Shown here: piece after piece, positions 5,972 through 33,261 of the stretch
How the letters are laid out: each line of letters starts with the position of its first letter
How positions within the stretch are numbered: the stretch's first letter is position 1
Origin: a virus
DNA: 36,375 bases
IMG/VR virus record: IMGVR_UViG_3300035034_001116
Coordinates: 1 to 36,375 of that record
Strand: one strand, 5' to 3'
Program-made: the position numbers and the translations under genes
Notes under the pieces: model-generated
What the model was told of the DNA's origin: nothing
Databases searched by the model: none
The model's input: only the letters and a program-made list of their open reading frames with translations

Positions 5972-6817
5972 ATGCAACAACCACCTGTCATCATTTACAA
6001 CCTGAAAGAGCGTGGCCGCAAGCACCGCGGCGTTGAGCGTAATTTCGATATTCCCGCCTTGGTTGCGTCAATCAATGGCCCTGCTACCCAGGAGCGCATC
6101 AACACGCGCGGTATGCTGGGCTTTTTTGGCCACTGGCCGCGCCTGCGGTTCGGCATGGAGCCCGCCGAGGGTGGCATTGCTGACGGCAAGTCCCAGGCAA
6201 TAGAGCCCGCCGTGGTCACCACCTACCTGAAAGCGCACCCAGACGGCACGGTAGAGCATAAAACCGAGTTTTTGGAGACCGATGCCGGCCAGCTTGCAGC
6301 CCGCATGTACTCCAATCGCGTGGGCGGCTTCAGTTCGGCTATCGACATGGACGCGCCTGAGCTGTTTGGGTTTGACTGGGTTAATGATCCCAACTACTCA
6401 ACCAATCGCGGCTATGAACTGGTGCTGGATTCAGCCACCGGCGGCGATATGTCGATTACCGATGTGATTTTGGCGGAACAGCAAGAAAAGATCGAAGCCC
6501 AGCGCCTGCTAATCGACACCATCGAGCAAAGCATGGGCCTGGCGTTAGATGCGGCCGGTCGCCTTGAGCAAGACAACAACGAGCTTCTGGATATGCTGGC
6601 GCGTCAAAACAAGCGCGCCGAAGAAGCGTCTGAGGGCTTGGCTCTGGACGACACGGTTACCGGTGGTGGGTGCCAAGAGGCCGCCAAAATGGTGAGTGAG
6701 TCGCGCCAATTCATGGATTCGGCGCTGCCGGCTATTATGATTCCCGACGAAAAAGCCGAAAGCCAAGACGACGAAGAGTACATGCAACTTTCGCGTCGAG
6801 TGATGCCTTATGTTTGA
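5972..6817 (+). CDS. Putative prohead protease with scaffold-like C terminus
   Basis: This 281-residue protein most likely matures the prohead. Residues about 46-160 hold a beta-rich domain. VEHKTEF (H96) is followed about 25 residues later by VGGFSSAID (S121/S122), the histidine-then-serine order seen in phage head-maturation proteases of the U9/S78/S80 kind. The surrounding FFGHWPR and ARMYSNRVGG segments look conserved-type. Residues about 164-222 form a long charged helix likely to be a coiled coil, which suggests a fused scaffold/core domain. The C terminus is acidic. The start ATG 5972 directly follows a terminator T tract and uses GAGGG in the terminator stem as ribosome-binding site. 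The protease call rests on motif spacing and on position upstream of the capsid gene. A pure scaffold is the alternative. Confidence 0.6.
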   Translation: MQQPPVIIYNLKERGRKHRGVERNFDIPALVASINGPATQERINTRGMLGFFGHWPRLRFGMEPAEGGIADGKSQAIEPAVVTTYLKAHPDGTVEHKTEFLETDAGQLAARMYSNRVGGFSSAIDMDAPELFGFDWVNDPNYSTNRGYELVLDSATGGDMSITDVILAEQQEKIEAQRLLIDTIEQSMGLALDAAGRLEQDNNELLDMLARQNKRAEEASEGLALDDTVTGGGCQEAAKMVSESRQFMDSALPAIMIPDEKAESQDDEEYMQLSRRVMPYV

Positions 6818-10033: not shown

Positions 10034-10071
10034 TCTATCCGTTCTAAATTGAGACTATGGAGATTAAAATC

Positions 10072-11754
10072 ATGGCGAAGAAACACGACCACACTCGCCG
10101 GGCTACCAGCGAAGCGGCCAGCTTCGTTGCCGGGCTTAAAAGCGAATCCATGAAGGGTGGCGCGTTTGACAGCGCGGCTGCCGCCGACTTCGTGGGCACC
10201 GCTCTGGACCAAGCCGGTTCCGTTAAAGTACCCGAAACACTGCAAGCCGTCTTCAGTGAAGGCGACGACAAGCAAGCACGTATGGTGACCCGTGCAATCC
10301 TCGACGGCGCCGCCAACTACGAGCGCATGCACGGCACCGAAGCCCCCGGCGACCTGCTGGAACAGGCCATGCACCTGGCTTACGGCACGACCCGCGATGC
10401 GGCCAAGAAAATGGCGATGGACAGCGCAACATCCGACAGCCATGCCGCTCTTTCGCTGCAACCCAACCGCGCTGTAGTAGCCATTCTGTCTACTTTGAGC
10501 GAAGCCATCCCATTTGCGCACTACTTGCCTGCCGATCTGCAGTCAAACGAAGCGCGCTTGGCCATCATGACCCACCAGGCAGGCAGCACCTACGGCGCCT
10601 ACACCCAAGGCGGGTTGATGGACGGCGTAAGCTCTGGCGACCGCTACATCAGCACCAGCCGCGAGCACATGTGCACGATCGTCATGGACGTGGGCAACCC
10701 GACCGGCGCGATTACCGGCAAGCTGACCGCCATCCAAGACACGGACAGCACGTGCGACCCCGCAGCGGGCGAAGTGCCTCTGTTGCGCGGACGCTCTATT
10801 GTGTACGTCAACGGTCGCGTAGCGGCTAACGAAGTAAGCACCAGCGGCAACGGCAATTCCAGCGTGTCCGGACAAGTCGAAATTGCAGGTACCGTTCATC
10901 AGATCAGCGGCACCATCAACACCGACAACGGCGATATCGCGCTGAATGCCTCACCGGTTCTGCCCGAGGGCAACGAAGTTCTGGTAGAAGGCTTTATTGA
11001 TTACGAGCGCGACGACACGTTGACGCCGCGTGTGATCACCAACGTCGACATCTTCTCGCTGTACGCCAAGCCATGGCGCGTGATCACCACGCAGTCCATC
11101 GATGCGCGCACCCAGATGAGCAACGAATTGGGTCTTGACCCGTATTCCGAGGGCATCATTGCCATTCAGTCGCAGTTTGCTAACGAGCGTCATTACGACG
11201 TGTTGCGCAAAGCGAAGCGTCTGTCGGTTGGCAATCAGGAAACCTTCGACTTTGCCTGGGCATCTCGCGGCGATTACAAAACTCGCGCCGACGTTATGCG
11301 CGACCTGTCATCTGTCATCGGCAAACTGTCACAAAAGATGGCCAACGACACGATGAACCACGGCATCACTCACTTGTACGTGGGCGATATGATGGCTGCG
11401 ATCATGCAGGGCTTGCCGCTTGACATCTGGATGCCTTCTGGCGTTTCCGAGCGTCCCGGTATCTACCGCGTGGGTCGTCTGTTTGGCAAGTATGACGTGT
11501 ATTACGCCCCGAAAGTGGTGATGGAAGCTTTGGATGGCAGCTCTGCAGAAATTATCTGCGTAGGGCAGGCCACCGACGTAACCCGCAACCCGTTTGTGCT
11601 GGGCGACGCCGTGGCACCCACTGTCATCCCGCTGGCAACCAACGCTGACCTGAAGTCTGGCGCTGGCTTTTATGCCCGCAACTTCACCGCCGTTAACCCG
11701 CACAACGCGTCTTCCAAGGCGTGCGCCCGGGTCAACATCACGAACCTGATCTAA
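10072..11754 (+). CDS. Major capsid protein
   Basis: The 560-residue protein is the best candidate for the HK97-fold major capsid protein, of the large T4 gp23-like type. The C-terminal two thirds carry typical elements: AKPWRVITTQSIDARTQMSNELGLDPYSE with SQFANERHYDVLRKA (spine helix region), a KLSQKMANDTMNHGITHLYVGDMMA stretch, RVGRLFGKYDVYYAP and a late VIPLATNADLKSGAGFYAR. The first 100 residues are Ala/Lys/Glu-rich helices and may be a pre-sequence removed by the prohead protease. Residues about 195-315 look like an inserted beta domain, with Gly/Asn/Ser-rich repeats around NEVSTSGNGNSSVSG. ATG 10072 is preferred over 10057 because GGAG at 10059-10062 is correctly spaced for it. Confidence 0.8.
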   Translation: MAKKHDHTRRATSEAASFVAGLKSESMKGGAFDSAAAADFVGTALDQAGSVKVPETLQAVFSEGDDKQARMVTRAILDGAANYERMHGTEAPGDLLEQAMHLAYGTTRDAAKKMAMDSATSDSHAALSLQPNRAVVAILSTLSEAIPFAHYLPADLQSNEARLAIMTHQAGSTYGAYTQGGLMDGVSSGDRYISTSREHMCTIVMDVGNPTGAITGKLTAIQDTDSTCDPAAGEVPLLRGRSIVYVNGRVAANEVSTSGNGNSSVSGQVEIAGTVHQISGTINTDNGDIALNASPVLPEGNEVLVEGFIDYERDDTLTPRVITNVDIFSLYAKPWRVITTQSIDARTQMSNELGLDPYSEGIIAIQSQFANERHYDVLRKAKRLSVGNQETFDFAWASRGDYKTRADVMRDLSSVIGKLSQKMANDTMNHGITHLYVGDMMAAIMQGLPLDIWMPSGVSERPGIYRVGRLFGKYDVYYAPKVVMEALDGSSAEIICVGQATDVTRNPFVLGDAVAPTVIPLATNADLKSGAGFYARNFTAVNPHNASSKACARVNITNLI

Positions 11755-19232: not shown

Positions 19233-19709
19233 ATGGCCAATTTATTGTTTTCATTCGAAGAGCTGAGCGCAAAAGACAAAGCCGCGCGCGAGGCCGTCAA
19301 GCACTTTAAAAAAGCGGGAGCCGCCGTGGCTCAGGTGGACGTTAATTCTAGCATCCGGAAGACCAGCGGCATTTCCTACCGAGAATTGCACCTGGTCTTT
19401 AACGACAGCCAGACCATCGCATTGCGCATAAAGGAAACCGGCGACATCTTTCAGGTGCTGCTGAACAAAAAAGCGTTACCGATTCGCAATCAGGACGAGC
19501 ACGCCAAGGCCATCAAAGAAATGGTATCCGCTATGGATCGTGGCCGTGTCGCGTTTCAGAAAAAGTTGGCGCGCAAAAAGGTAAAACTGCCCTCTGGTGT
19601 AAAAACAGCGGTTCCCAAGATGGAAGTGGCACTTCAAAAGCGCCGGGATGAGATGGCGTCCCAAGTTGGCGCGGCCAAGGCCCGGCTGACCGAGCTGAAC
19701 GCGGCATAA
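19233..19709 (+). CDS. DarA-related (defence-against-restriction) small protein
   Basis: The 158-residue protein resembles, from memory, the DarA N-terminal-type domain found in phage polyvalent proteins and in proteins annotated as defence-against-restriction DarA-related. Its pattern is FSFEELSAKDK..., AGAAVAQVDVNSSIRKTSGISYRELHLVF, NDSQTIALRIKETGDIFQVLLNKKALPIRNQDEHAKAIKEMVSAMDRGR, then a basic helical tail with VKLPSGVKTAVPKMEVALQKRRDEM. In phage P1, DarA is packaged in the head and is needed for protection of injected DNA from type I restriction. The gene lies within the baseplate operon, between the spike and PAAR genes and apart from the giant polyvalent genes. The family call is by pattern only. 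Confidence 0.55.
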   Translation: MANLLFSFEELSAKDKAAREAVKHFKKAGAAVAQVDVNSSIRKTSGISYRELHLVFNDSQTIALRIKETGDIFQVLLNKKALPIRNQDEHAKAIKEMVSAMDRGRVAFQKKLARKKVKLPSGVKTAVPKMEVALQKRRDEMASQVGAAKARLTELNAA

Positions 19710-20215
19710 TGGCCGAGGTGGTTTGGTCTCCGGCGCCGGGCGTGCTGTTTGAGGAGCCGGAAACCGCACGCGGGCTGAGTTTTCACATTAGCTGCAGCGT
19801 TGTGGTTGATCCGGTTGCCCTGGAGCCGGCGCCGACCGTTACCGGGTATCGTGCTGCGCTGGCTCCAGAGCCTGGCGCGCCGGTACTTCAGGTTTCTGTC
19901 AGTGCGAGCGGCATCAACGTAACCAGCGCGGCGCTTGCAGGCCTGTTCGGGATTGAGTTCATTGATTACTGGATTGATGGGCGCGTGGTGCAAGTCAAAC
20001 GATGGGAGGATTTACCCGAAGCCGCGCAGGAGGTGATCGAATTTCGCCCCAGCCGGACGAGTCAAAAAACGTACACGCTAAGCGCTGCGGCGCTGCTGTC
20101 AGACGGCACCGAGTCACTGGCAGGCTATCAATGCACGATTCAGCAAGACTGGACAGCCGGACGCGACCGGCTCAGGAGAGAAGTGGATGCCCGCCGCAAC
20201 CCGTCAAGGCGATGA
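19709..20215 (+). CDS. Hypothetical baseplate-cluster beta-rich protein (168 residues)
   Basis: ATG 19709 overlaps the preceding TAA (TAATG) and the 3' end overlaps the PAAR gene by 29 nt. The sequence is beta-rich and Ala/Val/Ser-rich, with an immunoglobulin-like run (PVLQVSVSASGINVTSAALAG, IEFIDYWIDGRVVQVKRWEDLPEAAQEVIEFRPSRTSQKTYTLSAAALLSDGT). The tail is basic (DRLRREVDARRNPSRR). No family recognised. Context suggests a baseplate or spike-associated component. Confidence 0.5.
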   Translation: MAEVVWSPAPGVLFEEPETARGLSFHISCSVVVDPVALEPAPTVTGYRAALAPEPGAPVLQVSVSASGINVTSAALAGLFGIEFIDYWIDGRVVQVKRWEDLPEAAQEVIEFRPSRTSQKTYTLSAAALLSDGTESLAGYQCTIQQDWTAGRDRLRREVDARRNPSRR

Positions 20216-20474
20216 ATGTACTGGCCATGGCACCTACGGCCCTCGCCCCAGCATTTCAGGCAGCGAAAACGTGCTGATTAACGGAATACCCGCGCATCGT
20301 GGAGGTGACGGTTGGGCAAGCCACTGCAATCCTAAATCCTGCCACGACAGCACTCTCTCAGGCGGCTCAGGCAGCGTTATGGCTAACGGCAAGCCGCTTG
20401 GCCGAGTAGGCGACCCCATTGCCTGTGGATCTGCCGTAGCCGCAGGGTCACCCGATGTTTTCGCGGGTGGGTAG
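20187..20474 (+). CDS. PAAR-domain spike tip protein
   Basis: The 95-residue protein is a stand-alone PAAR protein, the sharp zinc-bound tip that caps phage and type VI spike proteins. It shows the family order: MPAATRQGDECTGHG at the N terminus, SENVLINGIPAHRGGDGWASHC, then SGSVMANGKPLGRVGDPIACGS and a final AAGSPDVFAGG. Cysteines and histidines (in ECTGH, ASHC, SCHD, IACG) supply metal ligands. The start ATG 20187 has AGGAGAG at 20174-20180. It overlaps the previous gene, so the two are translated together. It is the last recognisable baseplate gene before the giant polyvalent genes. Confidence 0.9.
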   Translation: MPAATRQGDECTGHGTYGPRPSISGSENVLINGIPAHRGGDGWASHCNPKSCHDSTLSGGSGSVMANGKPLGRVGDPIACGSAVAAGSPDVFAGG

Positions 20475-20558: not shown

Positions 20559-23500
20559 ATGAAGCACCCCGTTTCTTGGACCGAGCAAAATGAGCCCATT
20601 GGCTTGTCGCTCGATCAGCTCCTGTACCGCATGCGCAGGCATGACAGCGCCGAAGGGCTGCTGTTCGATAGCGTCACTATGGATGAGATCCTGCAAGAAG
20701 AAGGCGTCGAACAATTCGCCTTTGACGCTCTGGTGTCCCCCTTTTCAAAGCTGAAACGCAAGATGGAGATCCTTTCTCGCACAATGGATCGCGCTATTGA
20801 TGGCTACGACGTGGCCGCGCTGCAGGTATCCAGCCCGTTTAAGCACGCCGGCGTAGCCCAGGTGGCGGCGGTGTTCGAGCTGGCAGATGGTCAGACGGTG
20901 AGCGTCTACTTCCACAACCCGGATAACTCCCCAGGCAAGTTATCGCCCAGCGACGAGATGATCAGCTGGAAATGGCTGCTTAATAAAAAAGACATCACCA
21001 TCGTGGTGGCCCCCGAGCGTGGCAGTGACCTGCAGATCCGTGAGGTAGCGCGCCGTATTATGAAGCTGGCCAAAAAGAACGGCCCCGCCTTCACCAAAGC
21101 CAACGCCAAGCGCGCAGAGCGCCTGGAAGTGGTTGATGGACTGCGTACTGAAATCAGCGATCTGGAGTATGAGCTGGCTGACCTGCAAGGCCAGATTGAA
21201 GTGGCAGAAGTGGAGTCAGAAAGCCGCGCAATGGCGCCGTACAAAGCGGTCAAGGCCGCTGGTATCGAAGCGCTCAATAAGTTTCGCAAGTTTTTAGGCC
21301 GTGGCCAATATCGCGCCATGCTCGACATCATCAATGGCGATGAAGGCGCTGAAATGGCCAGCAAAGCCCAGGCGATGGCCGCTATCATCGAAGGCATGGC
21401 CGCTACTTATGAGCAGGACGGCAAGGGCGATAACGCCACCGTTTACCTGCATTATTTCCAGAGCAGTGCCGATTGGTATATCACCGAAAAGGACGTCGAC
21501 GGCGGCACCAAGCAAGCCTTTGGCTACGCCGATTTGGGTCAGGGTGGCGAGCTTGGCTATATCAGCATCGATGAGCTGACCAAAGGCGATGCCGAACTGG
21601 ACCTGTACTTTGACCCCAAGCCCCTGAAAGCGGTTAAACCCTCTTCTGAGGATGCCGGTGTAGAAGCGCCTGTAACGCCTTCGGATGAACCTTCGAGTGA
21701 TGACGAAGCCGGGGCCGCAGAACAAGCGCCGATCGATGAGCGCAAGCCAGAGCCCACCACCCCGAAAGGTTACGCGGTCATCATGGACGACAAGGACGCG
21801 ATGACCGCCGTACAGGACCAGCTGGACAGCTTTTTCCAGGCCCGCATGGTTGAGGTGCGTAACGCTCTGCGTGAATTGAACTGGGAAGGCGACCGCTTCA
21901 AGACTTTATCTAAAAACGGGGTTGATGCGGCATTTGACCTTATCCAGGTGGGCGGCGGCGCCAACATTGTCGGTATCACCATTAACGGGCTTCGTGACGA
22001 TCTGAGCAAAACGGCTGAAGAATTGGCCGCCGAGGTTGATGCCTTGGCTGCACGGCCGGTAAACGAGTTGCCCGCAGAAGATGAACCCCTTGAATCATGG
22101 CAGACCGAAAAAGACGCCGTTGCAGCGATGAGCGACGAGCAGTTCGCGGCTGAAATAAAAACCTTGAACGATGAGAACCTGCGCAGCGAGGCATTGGTAT
22201 TGCTGGCTAAGCGCCAGGGTACTAATGAGCAGGTCACGGAAGCGCAAAGCCTTCTTGATGAGCACAACCGGGAGGGTGAGGCGTCCTCGGATCTGATTCA
22301 GCGCCGGGATGCGTTGCGCGCAGCGATAGAAGCTGCAGATGGCGAGCTAGAGCCTGAAGGCGCCACCAACATCGTGAAAACCGCCAAGGGTACCCAGATC
22401 GAAACCGGCTTTACCTTGGTTGAAGCGGAAAGCCTGATTGCGTCCCACGACTCCGCCGGTAACCCAAACCCCGACTACCCGCCTGAGTTGCAGCCAAGGG
22501 ACCGTGGGCGCGATGCCTCAATCGCCTGGGTTCGCAAGATCGCCAACGACCTTGACCCCGATAGCCTGGGCAAAACGCGCCGTGCGGATACCGGTGCGCC
22601 CATTGTCGGCCCCGATGGCGTGGTGGAGTCTGGCAACGGCCGCACCATGGCGATTCAGGAAGCCTACCGCTCCGGCAAAGCCGACGAGTATCGCGAATGG
22701 CTGACCGACGAGGCTGAATTTTTTGGCCTGAACGCGGACAAGGTTCGCGCGATGAAAGCGCCGGTACTGGTGCGGGTGCGCACGTCAGATATCGACCGCC
22801 GTGAATTCGCCATTGAAGCCAATCAAGACGACAAACTGAGCATGACCGCTACCGAAAAGGCCCGGGCTGACTCTGATCGCCTGGACGACTCGCTGATTTC
22901 GCGGCTCTCTGAAGACGGCAACCTGCTGGCATCCAGTAATCGGGATTTCCTTGCGGGGTTCATGGCGTCATTGGGTGATACCGAGGCGGCACAGTACACG
23001 ACCAGCGACGGCGCGCCGACCGCATCCCTGATTGCCCGCGTACAAGCGGCGATCTTTTCAAAGGCCTATAACGACGACCGCCTTCTTGAAATGGCCGCAG
23101 ATGTCAGCAAGCCCGAGGTGGCCAACGTCATCCATGCCCTGAATACCGCTGCACCCGAGTTTATTCGCGCTAAGGCGGCGGATCAGGACAACGCCGGTGC
23201 ACTGACAACGCAATTGGTAGACAGCGTTGAGGTGTCTCTGAATGAACAGGCGGTGCAGGCCATCACGGATGCCACCAACTTGGTTCGTATTGCGCGATCA
23301 GAAGGTAGCAGCGTTGATGAAATGGTTAGTCAGCGCGGTCTGTTCGGTGATATTTCGCCAGCTACGGCGGCCATGGCCATGTTCATCAATCAAAACAACC
23401 GCAGCAGCAAGCGGCTTGGCGTGGCCTTCCGTGCCATGGCTGAATTCTTGCGCACCGAGGCAGAGCGTGGCCAGACCGTTGATATTTTCGGCGACAGCCA

Positions 23501-24746
23501 GCAAAGCAGCCTTGAGCAAATCATTGACGCGGCGAACCGTGAGTTGAATAAGCAGTACGGCGAAGGTGAATACGCCATTGAGTCGCTGGACATGTTCGGG
23601 GAAACCGATAAGCAGGCTTTAGAGCAGGCGCGCGAAGATACCGACACAGACCCCACGGATGAGCAGAAAGAGTCAGGCGATTATGAGAAGGGTGATCTCA
23701 AGGCGTTCGGCCTGGATATTACCATCGAAAACTCGAAAGGCTCAGAGCGTTCAGGCGAAAGCGACGGCAAGCCCTGGTCAATCACCATGCCGCACGACTA
23801 CGGCTACATAAAAGGCACAAAGGGCATGGATGGCGACGAAGTTGATGTGTTTATCGGGCCGGACCTTGATTCAGAAACGGCTTACGTCATCGATCAAATG
23901 GACCGTGATGGCGCGATTGATGAGCACAAAGTCATGCTGGGCTTTGACGCGCAATCCGACGCAGAAGCCGCCTATATGGGCAGCTACAAGCCTGGCTGGG
24001 ACGGTATGGGTCGCGTGCGCGAGATGACGCTTAATGAGCTATCGGCATGGCTGCCCCTGGCCTCAAGCGAGGGCGCGCAGAATGAGCCGGAGCCGGTGGA
24101 AAACGATGCTGTACCAGAAGCTGCAGTAAAAGGTGACAAAGAATACATAGCTGAAAACTATAACGAGATTCTTTCTGACTTAAAAAAGGAAGTTAAAAAA
24201 GAGGTGGCAGCGGCGAAGCGCCGAACAGGCAGGAAGTCGCCAGATGTGGTTAAGGCAAGGCAGGCCGTTGCCAGCAAGCACGGGCTTGCGGCTAAAGGCT
24301 GGGACGAGGCGGATATGATTCTAGGCAAAGCTCTGATGCCATTGCTTGAGCTGAACATGGGCGAAGGCTCGCGCTCTGAGAGTGAAAAAATAGAGGCGAT
24401 TGGGCCGGAGTTAAAAAAGGCCCTAGAAGGTTATGGGGTAGCCGCAGTTGAGAATAACGCACCCCTCGAAATGGAGCCTGGCAACGAGGTTGACGAGCAA
24501 CCTCAGCCAAACTCTGCAGCTGAGGCCGAGGAAGCCACTCCCGCAGCCGAGGAAAGCACCGCAGACACCGAATTCCTGCAATCGGTCATCGATCAAACCC
24601 TTGACGACCCGATGTCAGCCGACATTGCCGACCAATTGGGCGCTATTTTTGAGCGCAACACCGGCGATAACGACATGGAAGCGATGATTGAACGCGCCGC
24701 CATGGTTTACCAAAAAGCCGTTTTGCAAGCCACTGCTAACCTTTAA
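20559..24746 (+). CDS. Giant polyvalent protein with DarA-like, ddrB ParB-like and pyrophosphatase-like domains
   Basis: The 1395-residue protein starts at ATG 20559 (GAGG at 20549). Residues about 35-200 hold a DarA-related region: a QVSSPFKHAGVAQVAAVFELADGQTVSVYFHNPD segment and a KLSPSDEMISWKWLLNKKDITIVVAPERG segment, then a coiled coil. Residues about 605-780 match the ddrB-type ParB-like domain, with IETGFTLVEAESLIASH, GAPIVGPDGVVESGNGRTMAI, REFAIEANQDDKLSMTATE. Residues about 1046-1166 match the phage inorganic-pyrophosphatase-like domain: ITIENSKGSERSG, WSITMPHDYGYIKGTKGMDGDEVDVFIGP, DEHKVMLGF, MGRVREMTLNEL. Acidic linkers join the parts. Such multi-domain proteins are described as 'polyvalent proteins', injected with phage or plasmid DNA to counter host defence. 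The enzymatic activity of each domain is unproven. Confidence 0.75.
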   Translation: MKHPVSWTEQNEPIGLSLDQLLYRMRRHDSAEGLLFDSVTMDEILQEEGVEQFAFDALVSPFSKLKRKMEILSRTMDRAIDGYDVAALQVSSPFKHAGVAQVAAVFELADGQTVSVYFHNPDNSPGKLSPSDEMISWKWLLNKKDITIVVAPERGSDLQIREVARRIMKLAKKNGPAFTKANAKRAERLEVVDGLRTEISDLEYELADLQGQIEVAEVESESRAMAPYKAVKAAGIEALNKFRKFLGRGQYRAMLDIINGDEGAEMASKAQAMAAIIEGMAATYEQDGKGDNATVYLHYFQSSADWYITEKDVDGGTKQAFGYADLGQGGELGYISIDELTKGDAELDLYFDPKPLKAVKPSSEDAGVEAPVTPSDEPSSDDEAGAAEQAPIDERKPEPTTPKGYAVIMDDKDAMTAVQDQLDSFFQARMVEVRNALRELNWEGDRFKTLSKNGVDAAFDLIQVGGGANIVGITINGLRDDLSKTAEELAAEVDALAARPVNELPAEDEPLESWQTEKDAVAAMSDEQFAAEIKTLNDENLRSEALVLLAKRQGTNEQVTEAQSLLDEHNREGEASSDLIQRRDALRAAIEAADGELEPEGATNIVKTAKGTQIETGFTLVEAESLIASHDSAGNPNPDYPPELQPRDRGRDASIAWVRKIANDLDPDSLGKTRRADTGAPIVGPDGVVESGNGRTMAIQEAYRSGKADEYREWLTDEAEFFGLNADKVRAMKAPVLVRVRTSDIDRREFAIEANQDDKLSMTATEKARADSDRLDDSLISRLSEDGNLLASSNRDFLAGFMASLGDTEAAQYTTSDGAPTASLIARVQAAIFSKAYNDDRLLEMAADVSKPEVANVIHALNTAAPEFIRAKAADQDNAGALTTQLVDSVEVSLNEQAVQAITDATNLVRIARSEGSSVDEMVSQRGLFGDISPATAAMAMFINQNNRSSKRLGVAFRAMAEFLRTEAERGQTVDIFGDSQQSSLEQIIDAANRELNKQYGEGEYAIESLDMFGETDKQALEQAREDTDTDPTDEQKESGDYEKGDLKAFGLDITIENSKGSERSGESDGKPWSITMPHDYGYIKGTKGMDGDEVDVFIGPDLDSETAYVIDQMDRDGAIDEHKVMLGFDAQSDAEAAYMGSYKPGWDGMGRVREMTLNELSAWLPLASSEGAQNEPEPVENDAVPEAAVKGDKEYIAENYNEILSDLKKEVKKEVAAAKRRTGRKSPDVVKARQAVASKHGLAAKGWDEADMILGKALMPLLELNMGEGSRSESEKIEAIGPELKKALEGYGVAAVENNAPLEMEPGNEVDEQPQPNSAAEAEEATPAAEESTADTEFLQSVIDQTLDDPMSADIADQLGAIFERNTGDNDMEAMIERAAMVYQKAVLQATANL

Positions 24747-24755
24747 GGACTTGAT

Positions 24756-27700
24756 ATGAACGCTACATTTGATGACGCCGTGAGCAGTGGCGCTAAATCC
24801 ATGCTGGCACGCCTTCGGCTTGTCGGAAGCCTGGCCAAAGTGCGCAAAGAAATACTGGAACTGGGAGCCGGAGCCGCCAATATCGTGCAGCGCCTGAAGC
24901 TGGTTAAAGAAGCTTTGGGATTGCGTGAGCAACTGGGATCAATGGAGGCAGCCAAGGTGGTTGCCCTGCCTGAACCCGATAACGAGCTGCAGGCCATTGA
25001 AGATCCAGTCGAGCCACTGCAAAGCCCGCGCCGCAACACGGCGGGGCTGTACGCATTCCATGAAAAACGCACCAAAGGCCAGCGCCAGAAAGCCAACAAT
25101 GCGGCGGTGGAATTACTGCAATCGGTTAATGCGGGCGATAAGTCCCGCGACGATCTTTCAGACGCTGACCGAGAGGTACTTGCAGGCTACACCGGCAACG
25201 GCGGTTCCCTTATCGGCGCTGACGGTAAGAAGGGCAGCGCCTACGAGTATTACACGCCCAAACCGATTGCAGAGGGGATCTGGAGCGCGCTTGAGGAAAT
25301 GGGATTTACCGGTGGCAAAATTCTGGACCCTTGCGCGGGCGTAGGTGTGTTCGGGGCTACGGCGCCGCTGAACTCCGCCGTGGACGCCGTAGAGCTGGAT
25401 GAGACCAGCGGGGGAATCAACGCCCTAGTGAACGACAGCGACAGCTACAGCACCACCGTCAGCCCATTTGAGGCGGTGGCAGCAAGCACCCCTGACGAAA
25501 TCTACGACGCCGTGGTGAGCAACGTACCGTTTGGTACCGTAGCCGACCGCGGCGGCAACCAGCTTGCTGACCCCAAGTACCAGAACGATACGCTTGAGGC
25601 GTACTTCATTTTGCGCTCCCTCGACAAGCTCAAGCCGGGCGGCCTGGCCGCCTTCGTGGTGCCTCCGAGATGTGTATCAGGTAAGGGCGGCTCCGAGGCA
25701 AAGCTACGCCAGCGGGCGAGCGTTAAGGCTGAATTTTTAGGCGCCTACCGCTTGCCCAACAGCGTATTTGGCGCGGCGAACGCTGACACCATTACCGACG
25801 TGATTTTTCTGCGTAAATACAGCCGCGACGCCGCTGAAAAGATCAGCGAACTGCAAGAGCAAAACCCCGGCCTATTATCCGAAGCGAACGTAATCTGGCA
25901 GCCCTTTATCGAGGGCAAATACTTCACCGGCGAGGGCAAGCGCTTTGTGATGGGCGAGTTCGAGCCAAAAGACCCGGCGAAGTTCCGCGACGTGGACCGC
26001 GTGAAGAACCCGGCATCTATCCCCGACATTGCTAAAATGCTGCGCAAGTTCCCGGGCTCGCGCATTGACTGGGATGCCCTGGAAACAGCGGAAACCCTAC
26101 CAATTCAATACCGCGAAGGCGACACCATTACCCAGGCCGGGCAGACCCTGGAGCTGCAGAACGGCGAATGGCGAGTCATTGAACGCGCCGGTGACAACGC
26201 CGACATGGCGCGCATGCTTCACAAGTGCCGGGATGCCTACAGCGCTTTCGAGGCGGGCGTGACGTTGGATCAGGCCCGCGAAGTCCAGAGCTACATGTCC
26301 AGTCAGAGCCGGTTTTCTGATATTCCGGCTTGGCTGGCTGCTACGCACTCCGCGTTCGAAAAGCTGGATTCGAGTACATCTGATAGCGCCTGGGCGCCCG
26401 CGTTAGTGGGCCTAGCCGTGGCACAAGTGTTAAGCGAGCAAGGCCGTGGCAGCGGCACCAACTTCTTTGAGGCCTACGCCGACCTTACTGCGGCGATGAA
26501 GATGCAGGCGGCAGCAGCCCGCAAAGTCAGCGGTAAGCTCGACGGCGAGCCCAAGCGCGGCATTGGTGAGTTGTTGGCCCACTACAGCAAGCGCACCTAC
26601 AGCGGCGTTTGGCGTGGCGACGTGCAGTCTGATATGCAGATCGACATTGGCGATCAAGCCGGGTTTGATGGGCTGGTGTACAAAGAGCAGGGCGTTTTTG
26701 TGTCCATGGACGATGCCCGGGACGTTCTGGGCTCAGAGTTTGACTTTCACGGCTCTGATGACTGGTGCCTTTCAGCTGCCGGTGACCGTGTGTGCCGTGC
26801 GGACGACTACTACACCGGTAACTACGCTGAATTCCTGAGAAATCTGGACAGCGAGATTCAGCAGGCACCGAACGACGATATCAAGCAAAAGCTGACTCGC
26901 CAGCGGCTGGTGGCAGAGGATCGCCTGGACAAAGTGGACGTCAGTAAGATCAGCTTCAATCTGTTCAGCCCCTACGTCACTCTGGAAGAAAAAGCAGAGT
27001 TTTTGCGCCGCTACGTTCATCCGGGCGCGGTGGTCAATTTTAACGAGAGCACCGGTGAGCAAGAGATTACCTTTGACATCCCCGGCAGTAAGTTATCTGA
27101 CCAGGAAAAGCTTATCCGCCGCATGGGCGCCTACCTGAAAAACGGCATCATTACCCTAGGCGGCTCAAAGCTTGATATGAAAGACGCGGACGCACTTGCA
27201 GAAATGCGCAAGATGGTCAACACGGCTAATGAGCAGTTCAACGGCTGGGCCAGCTCCAACCGCGGCATTGCTGACCGGTTAGATGCACGCTCAAACGATC
27301 CAGAAAAGCTTCGTTTCCGTCAAGTTGAGGACGAAAGCCCGCTCGACATCCCCGGAATGAACCCCGAGCTGTCATTGCACGGCTACCAGAACGCCTATGT
27401 GCGCCAGATGGGGCGTGATTTTTCGGGCATTAACGGATTTGGCACGGGTCTGGGCAAAACGTTTACAGCGCTGGCAGCGGTGCAGTATGTGCAAAGCATT
27501 GGCGCTAAGAAGAAGGCGCTGTTTGTTGTGCCCAACTCTGTGCTTTCGAACTGGCGTAAAGAGACTGAAAAAGCGTACGCCAGCACAGAAGATTGCCTGT
27601 TTGTGGGCCTGCGAGTAGACGACAAGGGCGGCGCCAAGGTCAGCTCTAGCAACTACGATGAAGACTTGGTGCGGGTGATGGAAAATCGTCACAGCAAAAT

Positions 27701-30700
27701 CTTTATGACCATGGAGGCGTTCGAGCGCATTCGCCTGCGCGATGACACCATCAACAACTACGAAACCTACATGCGCAGCGTGGATTCTTCGTTTGCAGAA
27801 CAGGAGTCTAAAAAAGACGACGAGCGCGCCAAGGGTAAGGCCAAGGGAATGCTGGCCATTTTGGGCGACAAGTCCGGGTCAGCGCCTTATCTGGAAGACA
27901 TGGGGATTGATTCGCTGGTAGTAGATGAAGCGCATTTTTTCAAGAATTCTTCATCAACCGTTGACTTCAAGGGCGGCAAATATTTGTCGGTCAGCCCTGC
28001 CAGCAAGCGCGGCATTGACGCACAAGCGAAGTCTTGGCTTATCCGGGGTGATTCGGCGCGGGGCGATGGCGTTATGTTGCTGTCAGCCACACCGATCACC
28101 AACAGCCCGCTTGAAATCTATTCCATGATGTCACTTGCGGTAGGCCATAGCCGCGTAAACGATTTGTGCGTGGGCGTAACGGGCGCGGATGCGTTTATGA
28201 ACGCGACCTGCCGAATCGAGAACGAAGATGACGAATCCCTTGACGGTCAGGTGCGATCGATCAACGTGTTCAAGGGACTGAATAATACGGACATGCTGTC
28301 TGGCGCCTTACGCCAGGTGGCAACCATCAAATCCGCCGAAGACGTGGGTGGCCAGCTAGTGGTACCGGATGCCCCGGAAGTGTCGGCGCAAGTCGGGCTG
28401 CCTGATGAAACCGTGGCGAAGCTGCAAGAATACAAAGAAGCGTACCGCTTTGCCGCAGACGACCTGGCCAACAGGAGCGACAACCGGGGCGATATTGATG
28501 CCTTCAACAGCGTCTCTGAGCGCACCGGCGAGTCTCTGGAGCTGGTTGGACACCCATTTAACCTGATCAACAAGATGACCATGCTGATTGCCGACCCGGA
28601 TCTTGACCGCCGGGTAAGCCGCTACTCCATTGAGGGTAGCGAGGAAGGTCAGGCGCAAACTTTGATGGAGCAATGGGGCTCGGCCAAGGTGACCGAGGAC
28701 CGCAGCCGACCAGGCCCGAACGCAACCGAAGACGAAGCCGTCAGCCGCAAGGCCATTCGCAACGCCGACAAGGAAGTGATTGGCCACAGCTATAAAATGC
28801 CGGTAAAGGCGTGGCTGGAAGGCGACAGCATCCTGATCGACAGCATTGATCCCGACACGCAAGACAAGTTTGAAAAAATGGCCGCCAAGGCTGGGCTGTC
28901 ATTGGATGTGAGCGTGCCGCCAAAACTGGCTGCTATGATTGAGAACGTGCAGTCAGAAGCCTCTAATCCGATTGGTATCGACGCTGCAGGTGAGCGCATA
29001 CCGTTTGCCAAGCAGCTGATATTTTGTGATCTGCTGGGGATGCACGGGAAGATCAGGCGCCTTCTGTCAAGCCGTGCCGGCATTCCAGCTTCTGCGATTG
29101 CCATCGTCACCGGCAAGAGCAACAACAAGCCGGATGAGATTCTAGACGTTCAGGACGGCTTCAACGCGGCGGGTGAGGACAACAAGTACCGCGTGATCAT
29201 TGCCAACGAAAAGGCAGAAGTCGGCATTAACCTGCAAAAAGGCACGCAGGCAATCCACCACCTGACCATCGGCTGGACCCCGGACAGCCTGACCCAGCGC
29301 AACGGCCGCGGCGTAAGGCAGGGCAACAAGACCGAGCGGGTTACGGTATATCACTACGATGCTGACGGCACCTTTGATACTGCCAAGCGAACGCTGGTCA
29401 ACAACAAGGCCACGTGGATTGATTCGCTGATGAGTGGCGACAATGACGGCAGCATTGACATTAACGGTGGCTTGTCACGGGAACAAATGGACGCGCTGAT
29501 TGATGCCATTGGCGATTCAGATGCGGTTAATCGCTTACAAGACACCATGGCCAAGCGCGAAACGGCTTCACGTGCCCGCACTAACCGAGAGCGCCAGGAG
29601 ATCAACCTGGACACCATAGAGACTCAAAATCAGTTTTTAAGCCAGAATGAGCGGCCTGAAGACTGGTTGGCGGGCTACTTTGGCCAGCTGATGACGGTTA
29701 TGGGGCAAATTGAAAAGCTGCGCAAGCGTCTGGGCAATCCCAAAGTGTCAGAAACAGCCCGTGTAAAAGCCGAAATATTGCTGTCAGAGCAAGGCGCCAA
29801 GCTGCGCGGCATTGAGAGCCGGATTGATGCAGCGGCTACGCTGAGTGAGTCCGTGTACGACTACAGAACGAAAGAGCATAGCGTGCAGGACGGCAAAGAG
29901 CCGCTATCACCACAGGATATCGTGAAGAACTTCCTGTCATCGGCTAAGCGGGGTGAAAACCGACCGGGTGACCTGGCAGATCAAGTGCGTCGAGGCCGGC
30001 ATGGCTACGGCAGCATGATGATCGAGATAACCGAGGATTCTGAAATAATCGACGAGTGGCAGTCAGAAGTTGATATGGCCCAGTCCCTGAAGAGTAAGGC
30101 GGTGGCTTCCTATCGCCAGCAGTCCAAGGTAGATGGCGCCATGCCCGAGGCGCTGGCCGACGCTTTTGCAGATGGCTCTGGCTTCAGCTTTGGCGGCGTA
30201 CAGTTGATGCCCGGCTGCTTTGTGGTGAGCGGCGACACCTGGCATCTGGTCGCCAGCGAGCGCCAGGCGCGTCACATGCCCAACGGGCTTGACCGCTCTG
30301 AAATGTTGTACCAGATTATGCCCGGCGAAGAGATTGTTTACCCTGGCAGCGCACGGTACGACGAGTTTGTTCGCATGGCTGCGAATCTGGAAGATGAAGC
30401 CGAGCGCGCAGGGCGTGCCACTCAGCACTTTAGCGAAATATTGCCCGACATTGCTCAGTTCCGCGAAACGGAGGTCATGGTGGCGTACTCATTTGGCGCT
30501 TACCACTTGCCGTCGCCATACTTCCCGACGCCCATTCGCCCGGATTGGGCCGAAAAGTCAGATTTGATGAAAACGTTGTTTGATCGGCAGGCAAAGATTG
30601 TTGCACGCTGGGAAGATAGCAAGTTTGTCGTGTCATCCAGCGTTGAAGTGGGCGCCTCGCAAGATCCATTGGATGAGCTGTTAATGCGCTATTGCAAGGC

Positions 30701-31253
30701 CAATGGCGTGCAGGTGGCCAGCGCAGACTTTAACGCTATCGGCTGGACCTACCATGTGCGCTCGCTGCTTGGGCGCGAATTGGCAACGGCCGGCGTGGAT
30801 GGTGATACCATTGAAGCAGAGGCTTTGCTGCACACATCGGATACAGCTTTCCGCGCCGCTATTGCCGGTAAGGTTCGGGCGGCAGCGCCTTGGTTCGCGT
30901 TTGACGGTGATGAAATCGACTTAATGCCAGCGGCGGCAAGAGTGCGCTTCAGTCGTGAGGAGTACTCCCTTATGCCTACTGACCAAGACGAGCCGGCAAC
31001 GGATTCCCCCGAGAGCCCCGAATCAGTTGATAAAAAGCCCTTGGATGTGGTGTATATCGGTGGTGATACCCGCGACTGGAAAGACCGAATCAAAGAATAC
31101 GGCGCCCGCTATGGTGACAGCAACCACCCTCCAAAGCGGGGCTATCGATGGATGCAGTCAGAATTGGCCTGGAGCGTTCAGTATCAGGCGTGGAAGAAAC
31201 TGATTGAGGATCACCCCAAAGCGGCTGATGCCCTGCAATTGAAGGAGCTGTGA
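24756..31253 (+). CDS. Giant N6-adenine methyltransferase / SNF2 helicase fusion (DarB-type)
   Basis: The 2165-residue protein joins two enzymes. The methyltransferase is about residues 150-380: target region YEYYTPKPIAEGIW, motif I ILDPCAGVGVFG from residue 189, motif IV SNVPFG at 255-260 (in place of the usual NPPF/Y), and DVIFLRKY near the end. The helicase is about 870-1560: Walker A GTGLGKT at 896-902, DEAH at 1057-1060, LLSATPITN near 1108-1116, and motif VI QRNGRGVRQG at 1514-1523. Long helical regions and a C-terminal module of about 70 residues (PLDVVYIGGDTRDW...) follow. The layout matches P1 DarB and related giant antirestriction proteins that travel in the virion and modify or shield incoming DNA. 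It is the largest gene here, follows the polyvalent gene after 9 bp and overlaps the next gene by one base. Confidence 0.85.
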   Translation: MNATFDDAVSSGAKSMLARLRLVGSLAKVRKEILELGAGAANIVQRLKLVKEALGLREQLGSMEAAKVVALPEPDNELQAIEDPVEPLQSPRRNTAGLYAFHEKRTKGQRQKANNAAVELLQSVNAGDKSRDDLSDADREVLAGYTGNGGSLIGADGKKGSAYEYYTPKPIAEGIWSALEEMGFTGGKILDPCAGVGVFGATAPLNSAVDAVELDETSGGINALVNDSDSYSTTVSPFEAVAASTPDEIYDAVVSNVPFGTVADRGGNQLADPKYQNDTLEAYFILRSLDKLKPGGLAAFVVPPRCVSGKGGSEAKLRQRASVKAEFLGAYRLPNSVFGAANADTITDVIFLRKYSRDAAEKISELQEQNPGLLSEANVIWQPFIEGKYFTGEGKRFVMGEFEPKDPAKFRDVDRVKNPASIPDIAKMLRKFPGSRIDWDALETAETLPIQYREGDTITQAGQTLELQNGEWRVIERAGDNADMARMLHKCRDAYSAFEAGVTLDQAREVQSYMSSQSRFSDIPAWLAATHSAFEKLDSSTSDSAWAPALVGLAVAQVLSEQGRGSGTNFFEAYADLTAAMKMQAAAARKVSGKLDGEPKRGIGELLAHYSKRTYSGVWRGDVQSDMQIDIGDQAGFDGLVYKEQGVFVSMDDARDVLGSEFDFHGSDDWCLSAAGDRVCRADDYYTGNYAEFLRNLDSEIQQAPNDDIKQKLTRQRLVAEDRLDKVDVSKISFNLFSPYVTLEEKAEFLRRYVHPGAVVNFNESTGEQEITFDIPGSKLSDQEKLIRRMGAYLKNGIITLGGSKLDMKDADALAEMRKMVNTANEQFNGWASSNRGIADRLDARSNDPEKLRFRQVEDESPLDIPGMNPELSLHGYQNAYVRQMGRDFSGINGFGTGLGKTFTALAAVQYVQSIGAKKKALFVVPNSVLSNWRKETEKAYASTEDCLFVGLRVDDKGGAKVSSSNYDEDLVRVMENRHSKIFMTMEAFERIRLRDDTINNYETYMRSVDSSFAEQESKKDDERAKGKAKGMLAILGDKSGSAPYLEDMGIDSLVVDEAHFFKNSSSTVDFKGGKYLSVSPASKRGIDAQAKSWLIRGDSARGDGVMLLSATPITNSPLEIYSMMSLAVGHSRVNDLCVGVTGADAFMNATCRIENEDDESLDGQVRSINVFKGLNNTDMLSGALRQVATIKSAEDVGGQLVVPDAPEVSAQVGLPDETVAKLQEYKEAYRFAADDLANRSDNRGDIDAFNSVSERTGESLELVGHPFNLINKMTMLIADPDLDRRVSRYSIEGSEEGQAQTLMEQWGSAKVTEDRSRPGPNATEDEAVSRKAIRNADKEVIGHSYKMPVKAWLEGDSILIDSIDPDTQDKFEKMAAKAGLSLDVSVPPKLAAMIENVQSEASNPIGIDAAGERIPFAKQLIFCDLLGMHGKIRRLLSSRAGIPASAIAIVTGKSNNKPDEILDVQDGFNAAGEDNKYRVIIANEKAEVGINLQKGTQAIHHLTIGWTPDSLTQRNGRGVRQGNKTERVTVYHYDADGTFDTAKRTLVNNKATWIDSLMSGDNDGSIDINGGLSREQMDALIDAIGDSDAVNRLQDTMAKRETASRARTNRERQEINLDTIETQNQFLSQNERPEDWLAGYFGQLMTVMGQIEKLRKRLGNPKVSETARVKAEILLSEQGAKLRGIESRIDAAATLSESVYDYRTKEHSVQDGKEPLSPQDIVKNFLSSAKRGENRPGDLADQVRRGRHGYGSMMIEITEDSEIIDEWQSEVDMAQSLKSKAVASYRQQSKVDGAMPEALADAFADGSGFSFGGVQLMPGCFVVSGDTWHLVASERQARHMPNGLDRSEMLYQIMPGEEIVYPGSARYDEFVRMAANLEDEAERAGRATQHFSEILPDIAQFRETEVMVAYSFGAYHLPSPYFPTPIRPDWAEKSDLMKTLFDRQAKIVARWEDSKFVVSSSVEVGASQDPLDELLMRYCKANGVQVASADFNAIGWTYHVRSLLGRELATAGVDGDTIEAEALLHTSDTAFRAAIAGKVRAAAPWFAFDGDEIDLMPAAARVRFSREEYSLMPTDQDEPATDSPESPESVDKKPLDVVYIGGDTRDWKDRIKEYGARYGDSNHPPKRGYRWMQSELAWSVQYQAWKKLIEDHPKAADALQLKEL

Positions 31254-31663
31254 TGTTTACCGAATGGTTGTTCGAAAAAGAGGGAATTCAGGACTTGGCG
31301 GCTGAAAAGGCCGCTAATCTAAAGGCCGACAAGGGGTTTTCGGACTTGCAAGGGTTTGCGTTAGGAGTGATCCGGCGTCGGCTTGAAAAAGACCCGCTGC
31401 GGTATCGCGACTATGGCCCCTATTGGTGGGCGCTGAAACAGGTACTGAATGATGCAAATCGGGACATGGGCGATCAGGACGACTCGCGGGTGCGCGCCAC
31501 CTATGCCGGTGACACGGCGCTTGAAACCCTGATAATGGCAGACGAGTTCCGAACTCTTGCGTTGTCGCGCTGGCCAGTGGGAAACAGTCAATTTCTGTTG
31601 TCAGCGGATGATGGCGAATACAGCTTGCACGATCAGGATATGGAGGCGCTAGTCACCGGGTAA
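31253..31663 (+). CDS. Hypothetical protein coupled to the DarB-type gene (136 residues)
   Basis: ATG 31253 overlaps the upstream TGA (TGATG) with GGAG at 31244-31247. A GTG at 31250 is a weaker alternative. The protein begins MFTEWLFEKEGIQDLAAEKAANLKADKGFSDLQG and has a distinctive RDYGPYWWALKQVLNDANRD segment around residues 52-71, then an acidic helical C terminus. No family recognised. Because it is translationally coupled to the methyltransferase-helicase, it may be a small partner or chaperone of the injected proteins. That is inference. Confidence 0.6.
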   Translation: MFTEWLFEKEGIQDLAAEKAANLKADKGFSDLQGFALGVIRRRLEKDPLRYRDYGPYWWALKQVLNDANRDMGDQDDSRVRATYAGDTALETLIMADEFRTLALSRWPVGNSQFLLSADDGEYSLHDQDMEALVTG

Positions 31664-31689: not shown

Positions 31690-31720
31690 CCATGGCGCTG
31701 CCGTACAGTGGGCGCCATGG
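31690..31720 (+). promoter_or_regulatory. Perfect 9-bp inverted repeat enclosing the portal start codon
   Basis: CCATGGCGC (31690-31698) and GCGCCATGG (31712-31720) are perfectly complementary with a 13-nt loop. The portal ATG (31717-31719) lies within the right arm and no Shine-Dalgarno sequence is visible before it. There is no T tract, so it is not a terminator. It could hold portal translation low or respond to a protein or RNA partner. Confidence 0.6.
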
Positions 31721-33261
31721 CTACCAAACCCCAAAAGCAGCGACGCGGAATCTTCTCATCTTTGTTCGGCAGCAACACGGCTGCTTATACAAAGGAGGCG
31801 GCGTCAGCGAGCGATATAAGCGTATCAGACACAACCCTCTACGGCGCCGGTATGACCACGGTCGCCAGCCTGATGTCGTCTGGAAACCGAAAGGCCCGTA
31901 CCCGTCAAACCATCTACGATCAGTGGTCAATGATGGAATCAAATCCCATCGTTTCTACCTCTGTGCAGCTGCTGGTAACCGCCGCGCTTGGCGGCCATGA
32001 GACCAATGGCAGCCTGGTCTTCATCGAAGAGCGCCCAGGCTTCGCCGATGATAAGAAAATGTCGGCTATGGTGCGCGAGATTCGTGATGACCTATCAGAT
32101 ATGTTCAACTCCGTCGCCTTCAACGTGGCGTATTTAGGCGCCGCTTTCGGTGATGCCTACGCGCGCGTGTACAGCGAAGAAAAAAAAGGCGTCGTTGATC
32201 TTTATATCGGTGAAATGGTGCGCCCGCCCCTGGTGCAGCCGTTTGAACGTGGATCGCGCACGGTTGGTTTTGCCGTATACACCGGTCCCCGAAATTTTCA
32301 GCGCCTGGACAAAACCCAGATGGTGCGCATGAGAATGCCGCGCACGCAGTGGATACCCCAGCACGGCGTACTTGAAAAGTCCTTAAAACTCGCACTGGAA
32401 GAAGATTCCATCGAAAACCTACCGTTGATGCCGGGCATGGTCGGTGGGTCGCTCCTGTACTCCGCCGAAGAGCCCTACAACAATCTGGCGTCCAGCCTGT
32501 TGGGTCTGGTGGGGCAGCGATGGATGGATTCTATCGATGAGCAGATGCTGACCGTTAATCTCAATGATATGAGCAAGGCACAGCAAAAGAAGTTCTTGGA
32601 ATCCATCGGCGGAATGTTGAAGCGCTCAAAAGACGTGGCAGAGAGTGCCGCCAAGGGTGGGCGCCCTGTCATGGAGCGTATCCGCCACGTTATACCGGTC
32701 TTCGGTGATAAGCAGCTCACTACCATTCAGGCGCCCAATGGCGGCCAAACCGGTCGCACTTCCAGTATCGGTATTGAGGACATCATGCTTCATGCACGCC
32801 TGTTGTCGGGCGCCTTGGGCGTTGACCTTTCGATGGTGGGCTTCGCGGATCAGATGGGCGGCGGCCTGGGTGAGGGTGGGTTTTTCCGAACCAGCGCACA
32901 AGTTGCTGAGCGCGCACGGGTAATCCGGGTGGCACTGTCAGAGTTCTTCAATCACGTGATTGACGTCCACACGCTAAAAAAATACGGCGTCGTTATCCCC
33001 GCAGCAGAGCGCCCATGGCAAATTAATTTCTTTGGCTCTATATCCGCGCTGGAATCTGAAAAGCAACGCACCCGTTCGGACAGCATGAGCGTTGGCCTAA
33101 TGTTGATACAGGCCATTCAGCAGCTTAAGGATATGGACGTCAGCGAAGAGATGGCCGTCGACTACCTGACCGACCTAATGCAGCTCGACGAAGATCAGGC
33201 CAGGCTCTACGCCAAAGCCGTGGTCGCAGCAAAGAAGGATGATGGCAATGGGTTTGTTTGA
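31717..33261 (+). CDS. Portal protein
   Basis: The 514-residue protein forms the ring at the capsid vertex through which DNA passes. Portal-like segments are RKARTRQTIYDQWSMMESNPIVSTSVQLLVTAALGG at the N terminus (the helix-rich wing of many myovirus portals), then a beta region with GVVDLYIGEMVRPPLVQPFERG. Further on are DKTQMVRMRMP, RHVIPVFGDKQLTTIQ, DIMLHARLLSGALGVDLSMVGFADQMGGGLGEGGFFRTSAQ and a final helical part with YLTDLMQLDEDQARLYAKA. This order resembles T4 gp20-type portals. ATG 31717 is preferred; GTG 31708 would add MGA. Both fall in or next to a strong hairpin. The gene is about 27 kb from the terminase genes, which is unusual because they are normally neighbours. Confidence 0.75.
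   Translation: MATKPQKQRRGIFSSLFGSNTAAYTKEAASASDISVSDTTLYGAGMTTVASLMSSGNRKARTRQTIYDQWSMMESNPIVSTSVQLLVTAALGGHETNGSLVFIEERPGFADDKKMSAMVREIRDDLSDMFNSVAFNVAYLGAAFGDAYARVYSEEKKGVVDLYIGEMVRPPLVQPFERGSRTVGFAVYTGPRNFQRLDKTQMVRMRMPRTQWIPQHGVLEKSLKLALEEDSIENLPLMPGMVGGSLLYSAEEPYNNLASSLLGLVGQRWMDSIDEQMLTVNLNDMSKAQQKKFLESIGGMLKRSKDVAESAAKGGRPVMERIRHVIPVFGDKQLTTIQAPNGGQTGRTSSIGIEDIMLHARLLSGALGVDLSMVGFADQMGGGLGEGGFFRTSAQVAERARVIRVALSEFFNHVIDVHTLKKYGVVIPAAERPWQINFFGSISALESEKQRTRSDSMSVGLMLIQAIQQLKDMDVSEEMAVDYLTDLMQLDEDQARLYAKAVVAAKKDDGNGFV

Follow-up and report, generated by a model that had tools for sequence, protein, structure and literature searches.

The window, meaning the whole stretch of 36,375 bases that makes up virus record IMGVR_UViG_3300035034_001116 of IMG/VR, carries three coupled, co-directional ORFs between the gene for a PAAR spike tip and the portal gene (Table 1). 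They encode a polyvalent protein, a DarB-type methyltransferase-SNF2 fusion and a small protein, with 9 nt separating the first two genes and the start of the third overlapping the DarB stop codon. A preliminary description had placed this coupled unit among late structural genes and related it to the Dar (defence against restriction) system of P1. Both points were borne out, the first by the ORFs and their neighbours and the second by matches of DarA_N, ddrB-ParB, DarB and Ulx to named P1 families; the block measured 11.1 kb, not 12 kb as had been given. Its three genes were correctly delimited, but the Dar system reaches further upstream, to an Hdf-like gene that had been missed. The P1-type head genes (Pro, portal and major capsid protein) were all present in the contig, and Pro is the expected processing enzyme. 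The annotation of Xanthomonas phage Rb1 (PQ569993), in which the portal homologue is seemingly labelled a baseplate wedge protein, hinted that the portal gene might be a misread baseplate gene; this was ruled out by its match to phrog_1497 (E=2.4e-164). Cysteine is absent from the polyvalent protein, Ulx and the Hdf-like protein, and DarB has 11.

Table 1. Features of the Dar block and of the head and tail genes around it in the window.
Feature	Position (nt)	Strand	Residues	Evidence or remark
Prohead protease, P1 Pro homologue	5972..6817	+		phmmer to P1 Pro 2.5e-11; phrog_1801, the family of P1 Pro
Major capsid protein, P1 gp23 homologue	10057..11754	+		phrog_1014 E=2.5e-139; tblastn P1 gp23 3e-13, Rb1 capsid protein 1e-176
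Hdf-like protein, stand-alone DarA_N	19233..19709	+	158 aa	PF18788 E=3.5e-22
PAAR spike tip	20187..20474	+		PF05488 E=8.6e-14; upstream of block
Three-gene Dar block	20559-31663	+		three coupled co-directional ORFs
Polyvalent DarA/DdrB-type fusion protein	20559..24746	+	1395 aa	ATG start
DarA_N domain	20715..21080	+	aa 53-174	PF18788 E=7e-41
DUF2958	21378..21599	+	about aa 274-347	PF11171 E=4.1e-5, above gathering score
DdrB homology region	22359..23567	+	aa 601-1003	42% identity to P1 DdrB aa 27-434, E=3.8e-92
ddrB-ParB domain	22386-22781	+	aa 610-741	PF18763 E=1.5e-36
InPase domain	23661..24053	+	aa 1035-1165	PF18823 E=1.8e-48; acidic motif MDGDEVDVF
DarB	24756..31253	+	2165 aa	
N-terminal tandem helical motif, candidate virion-loading tag	24798..24935	+	about aa 15-60 of DarB	profile comparisons
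N6-adenine methyltransferase domain	25227..25844	+	aa 158-363 of DarB	PF02384 (N6_Mtase) E=5.5e-10
SNF2/helicase region	27423..29324	+	aa 890-1523 of DarB	PF00176 (SNF2) E=7.5e-9, PF00271 E=7.3e-4
DarB C-terminal region	29676..31250	+	aa 1641-2165 of DarB	coiled coil then mixed domains; AlphaFold2 pLDDT 92.4, pTM 0.65
Ulx	31250..31663	+	137 aa from GTG, or 136 aa from ATG at 31253	
Portal protein, P1 Prt homologue	31708..33261	+		phrog_1497; P1 Prt 2e-51; downstream of block

Besides its DarA_N domain, the polyvalent protein resembled P1 DarA more widely, with residues 55-217 aligning to residues 67-246 of DarA (blastp 1.3e-19); the NCBIfam DarA family matched residues 97-222 at 3.9e-21, below the family cut-off. 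An alignment to P1 DarA followed along the chain by one to P1 DdrB means that the N-terminal part of darA and the ParB part of ddrB are fused here. The InPase domain occupies the place where P1 DdrB runs on to its peptidase. That peptidase end was not found, and a sequence scan showed no HExxH in the block proteins. A DdrA match was likewise absent among the window proteins tested, and a stand-alone DdrA was not identified in the 36-kb fragment. The C-terminus of the polyvalent protein, considered as a possible fused DdrA, gave no match. Assignment of the same C-terminus to the C-terminal domain of small tagged proteins from related loci (see below) was unsupported (E=0.34).

Conservation of the block and pairing of DarB with Ulx

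DarB is built of the N-terminal motif, a linker, the methyltransferase, the SNF2 helicase and a C-terminal region. Its catalytic motifs are intact (DPCAGVG at residue 191, NVPF at 256, GLGKT at 898, DEAH at 1057, SATP at 1110 and QRNGR at 1514), and P1 DarB has the same NVPF variant. These motifs, together with the N6_Mtase and SNF2 matches, upheld the identification of DarB as a methyltransferase-SNF2 fusion. LPD36, described by Iyer et al. 2017 (PMC5512222), sits between the motif and the methyltransferase. Large stretches of both giant proteins had been put forward as uncharacterised and possibly new. One such region in the polyvalent protein proved to be DUF2958; in DarB, the N-terminus is a portable tandem motif, and the last 525 residues have no detectable relative. 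Those 525 residues had no Pfam match, and a coiled coil was all that fold searches picked up (Z 8.4 over 54 residues); they are clade-specific and, judged by the AlphaFold2 model, well folded. They do not form an Ulx-dependent module, as P1-type and other DarBs that lack the region still have Ulx.

The small protein had also been offered as a possible new component. It is instead Ulx, a known part of the Dar system, since it matched the PHROG Ulx family (phrog_1629) over its whole length at E=1.8e-24; P1 Ulx was matched by phmmer at 5e-11. The AlphaFold2 model of Ulx is mostly helical (pLDDT 95.4). When this model was searched against PDB and BFVD, nothing scored below E=1 (best Z 3.8), and the only match among PDB sequences was a designed helical repeat (E=0.006). 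Such a lack of structural matches, for Ulx or for the DarB C-terminus, would be no proof of a new fold.

Gene order in relatives had been proposed as a check on the block, and the order was found to recur. Fourteen relatives inspected and phage Rb1 share it, mostly as Hdf-like - polyvalent - DarB - Ulx - portal. The order is seen in a Halomonas salipaludis prophage (L164). The Hdf-like gene is kept upstream of the block in relatives, its Rb1 homologue being annotated as a DarA N-terminal protein. The variants comprise a capsid gene in place of the portal after the block (locus L015), a 3.6-kb insert between Ulx and the portal (L014) and a polyvalent part split over several genes (L012 and L017). 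As the identical order recurs in many divergent relatives, the block is real and a chance arrangement is excluded.

To count the pairing of DarB with Ulx, loci were fetched by DarB only, Ulx not being used, and reduced to 100 non-redundant clusters (90% identity). Ulx lay within 12 kb downstream of DarB in 96 of the 100 clusters, and in 88 it was the immediate neighbour on the same strand. The four clusters without Ulx all lack an intact methyltransferase-helicase: the methyltransferase is missing in L018, L187 is truncated, and L235 and L237 are distant SNF2 proteins. A DarA_N, DdrB or InPase gene was found within 10 kb upstream of DarB in 68/79, adjacent in 33. The pair had already been reported outside P1, in Thermus phages (PMC11437467); in the literature searched, its near-universality does not seem to have been noted. 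With this pairing, Ulx ceases to be an accessory of P1 and becomes a partner to be expected wherever a methylase-helicase DarB of this kind is encoded. In loci L159 and L214, unlike nearly all relatives, Ulx adjoins DarB on the opposite strand.

A tandem-helix motif common to DarB and unrelated Dar cargo

The motif takes up the first ~60 residues of DarB. In the DarB N-termini of this clade it runs as [LF]DDA, xRLKLxxELxxxRxxL, a loop and RLKLxxRxxxIRxxLG, followed by a variable linker and the methyltransferase. The two helices repeat one another in tandem (P=8e-8; the best of 102 random window pairs reached 0.003). A search profile made from DarB N-termini alone matched non-DarB ORFs within the loci of DarB clusters, usually at their N-terminus. 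In small DdrA-like proteins (103-154 aa), and in 638-659-aa proteins similar to the DdrB peptidase end, the matches covered residues 3-77, and an LPD3 protein was matched weakly; in several DUF2958 proteins the motif was internal, ahead of DUF2958, rather than N-terminal. Reversed, shuffled and locally shuffled ORFs gave zero matches below 1e-3 to the same profile.

A profile-profile comparison linked the DarB N-termini to the DdrA family (a profile of P1, Cronobacter phage, Vibrio, Photobacterium and Spartinivicinus members) at P=3.7e-7 and 93% probability, with both helices in register at the N-terminus; the best of 64 control families from the same loci reached 0.025. Across 49 whole phage records (sets of 20 and 30 with one shared), the motif occurred only in Dar cargo and in one unannotated Rb1 ORF, and part of these matches was expected, because the proteins sat in the query alignment. 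It was found on 37/110 DarB clusters, so that about one third have a recognisable copy, versus 0/81 DarA_N clusters, the clusters not being independent by descent. Since the motif is short and helix-rich, some of the resemblances could be convergent.

The link to P1 itself is less direct. P1 DdrA alone was unmatched by the DarB-only profile; it is connected to the motif via Vibrio relatives, which match the DdrA PHROG, and relatives have DdrA-like proteins carrying the motif. The validated N-terminal segment of P1 DarB had no detectable similarity to the motif in a profile comparison (E=0.18). An assignment of the P1-type and other classes of DarB N-terminus to one and the same module likewise found no detectable support in profile comparison.

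Rb1 has two unannotated ORFs with the tandem motif, one encoding the 154-aa DdrA-like protein (L001 17480-17944) and the other carrying the motif at its end (L239 3080-3574, record position near 7.4 kb). A 60-residue C-terminal domain is common to the small tagged proteins (L001 17480-17944, L109 6343-6750 and L196 7502-7900) and to many DarA-type C-termini; it is weakly present in P1 DarA at residues 600-631 (E=0.0018).

Comparison with P1 and a proposed mode of loading

Like P1, the window has homologues of Hdf, of the N-terminal part of DarA, of the ParB part of DdrB, of DarB and of Ulx; darB adjoins ulx near the portal gene, and Pro, portal and capsid are of P1 type. It differs in fusing the DarA_N and DdrB parts with DUF2958 and InPase in one 1395-aa protein, in showing no DdrB peptidase and, within the fragment, no separate ddrA, in having its genes all in one late operon, and in the N-terminus and C-terminal region of DarB. 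The block is thus a new, partly fused layout and not a categorically new system. The closest annotated phage, Rb1 (DarB 44% identity over 99%, Ulx 42%, capsid protein 54%), has Hdf, polyvalent protein, DarB and Ulx in the order of the window, but carries two additional genes between the polyvalent protein and DarB, namely the tagged DdrA-like ORF and a peptidase gene. Iyer et al. 2017 (PMC5512222) described polyvalent proteins that likewise combine DarA_N, ddrB-ParB, InPase and the methylase-helicase dyad in large multidomain proteins near late genes; Ulx is not named in that paper, and in the passages found a shared N-terminal motif is not described. The Thermus Lalka phages (PMC11437467) have a DarB-like gene followed by a Ulx homologue, for which virion packaging was predicted; they are phages of thermophiles, and the passage in question covers the DarB-Ulx pair only.

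Virions of P1 contain all six Dar proteins (DarA, DarB, DdrA, DdrB, Hdf and Ulx). A reporter is carried into the P1 capsid by no more than the first 30 residues of DarB, and Ulx is described as a protein that 'aids DarB localization' (PMC9024508). The capsid is lined by pairs of DarA and Hdf, without which the other Dar proteins are not packaged (PMC12810830). From these precedents we infer that the proteins of the window would be packaged, injected and protective against restriction, in agreement with the preliminary description, which had considered packaging in the virion likely. The P1 facts on DarB, Ulx and the DarA-Hdf lining also make the simplest model one in which DarA_N anchors itself, cargo without DarA_N is tagged and Ulx serves DarB. 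The P1-type Pro, portal and capsid of the contig correspond to the machinery on which Dar loading in P1 depends.

Taken together, we consider it highly probable that the block is a P1-type Dar system of a P1-like tailed phage, with darA and ddrB fused in one polyvalent late-operon gene, and that it works as follows. During head assembly, DarA_N of the Hdf-like and polyvalent proteins would attach to the inner face of the P1-type capsid, and Pro would trim head proteins. DarB (240 kDa, without DarA_N) would be recruited into the head via its N-terminal tandem-helix tag, with the help of Ulx as a dedicated partner. Upon infection, all Dar proteins would be ejected with the DNA and would shield it in cis from type I-like restriction. 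DarB would do so as a methyltransferase-translocase, by occlusion or in both ways; Dar of P1 is known to act in cis (PMC12707154).

How DarB and other cargo enter the head is the more tentative part of this proposal. We hypothesise that the motif directs loading and that Ulx exerts its effect by way of this motif. More broadly, each cargo protein might carry either a DarA_N anchor or the motif as a common Dar virion-loading tag, with Ulx as a DarB loading factor of undescribed fold, a reading for and against which the evidence seems to us almost balanced. The main caveat is that the validated targeting segment of P1 DarB does not detectably match the tag, though the DdrA family, of which P1 DdrA is a member, has it. 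This mismatch would sit well with a docking module by which DarB and other cargo attach to each other, to Ulx or to DNA after injection while other signals direct packaging, and so would the sometimes internal position of the motif and its basic amphipathic helices, which could bind DNA or proteins. Yet the motif occupies the position of the sufficient capsid signal of P1 DarB, the cargo that bears it lacks DarA_N, no DarA_N cluster has it, and variable linkers come after it in DarB; we therefore view docking as possible but somewhat doubtful.

Two further alternatives concern the system as a whole. It is unlikely that the proteins are packaged for a main role other than anti-restriction, with DarA_N shaping the capsid and InPase, ParB and DarB acting on nucleotides or DNA of the host shortly after entry. 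Head size is indeed controlled by DarA and Hdf in P1 (PMC12810830), and nucleotides or DNA are the predicted substrates of InPase and ParB domains (PMC5512222). The core of the block, however, is DarB, which has Ulx as its partner in nearly all cases and whose relatives shield DNA from type I enzymes (PMC5512222, PMC12707154). That the block is expressed late and acts unpackaged in the producing cell, for instance in DNA modification or superinfection control, is very improbable given that the P1 virion contains DarA_N proteins, Ulx and DarB and that the contig encodes Pro, portal and capsid of P1 type, even though the phage is known here from its genes alone and host defence systems, too, include SNF2-methyltransferase proteins (weak cross-matches).

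With the Dar reading preferred, what the window adds is the DarB-Ulx rule together with a candidate common tag, and the occurrence of the DarB N-terminal motif on unrelated Dar cargo may be the novelty. The candidate tag bears on an open question of the P1 literature: a common Dar targeting sequence was suspected in the 2022 P1 study, in which BLAST gave no consensus (PMC9024508). A candidate tag common to DarB, the DdrA family and other cargo emerges when the relatives of the window are compared. This makes the targeting-sequence question directly testable by reporter fusions in laboratory phage. A portable loading tag, if true, would be useful for studying phage protein delivery.

The relatives also revealed variation in DarB itself. 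A natural 3886-aa fusion (L161 4469-16129) joins InPase, RelA/SpoT, ddrB-ParB, methyltransferase and SNF2 helicase and is followed by ulx, which links the functions of the polyvalent protein and DarB. An intein splits the SNF2 domain of DarB in L017 (9992-17608; Intein_splicing E=6.8e-14, directly after the DEAH motif) and in L042 (2478-9971; 4e-12), and SNF2 matches are likewise interrupted in the long DarBs of L139, L150, L153 and L214. Finally, a DarB relative without methyltransferase and without Ulx occurs in prophages with related head genes (L018, L019, L020 and L200), one of them in Avibacterium paragallinarum.
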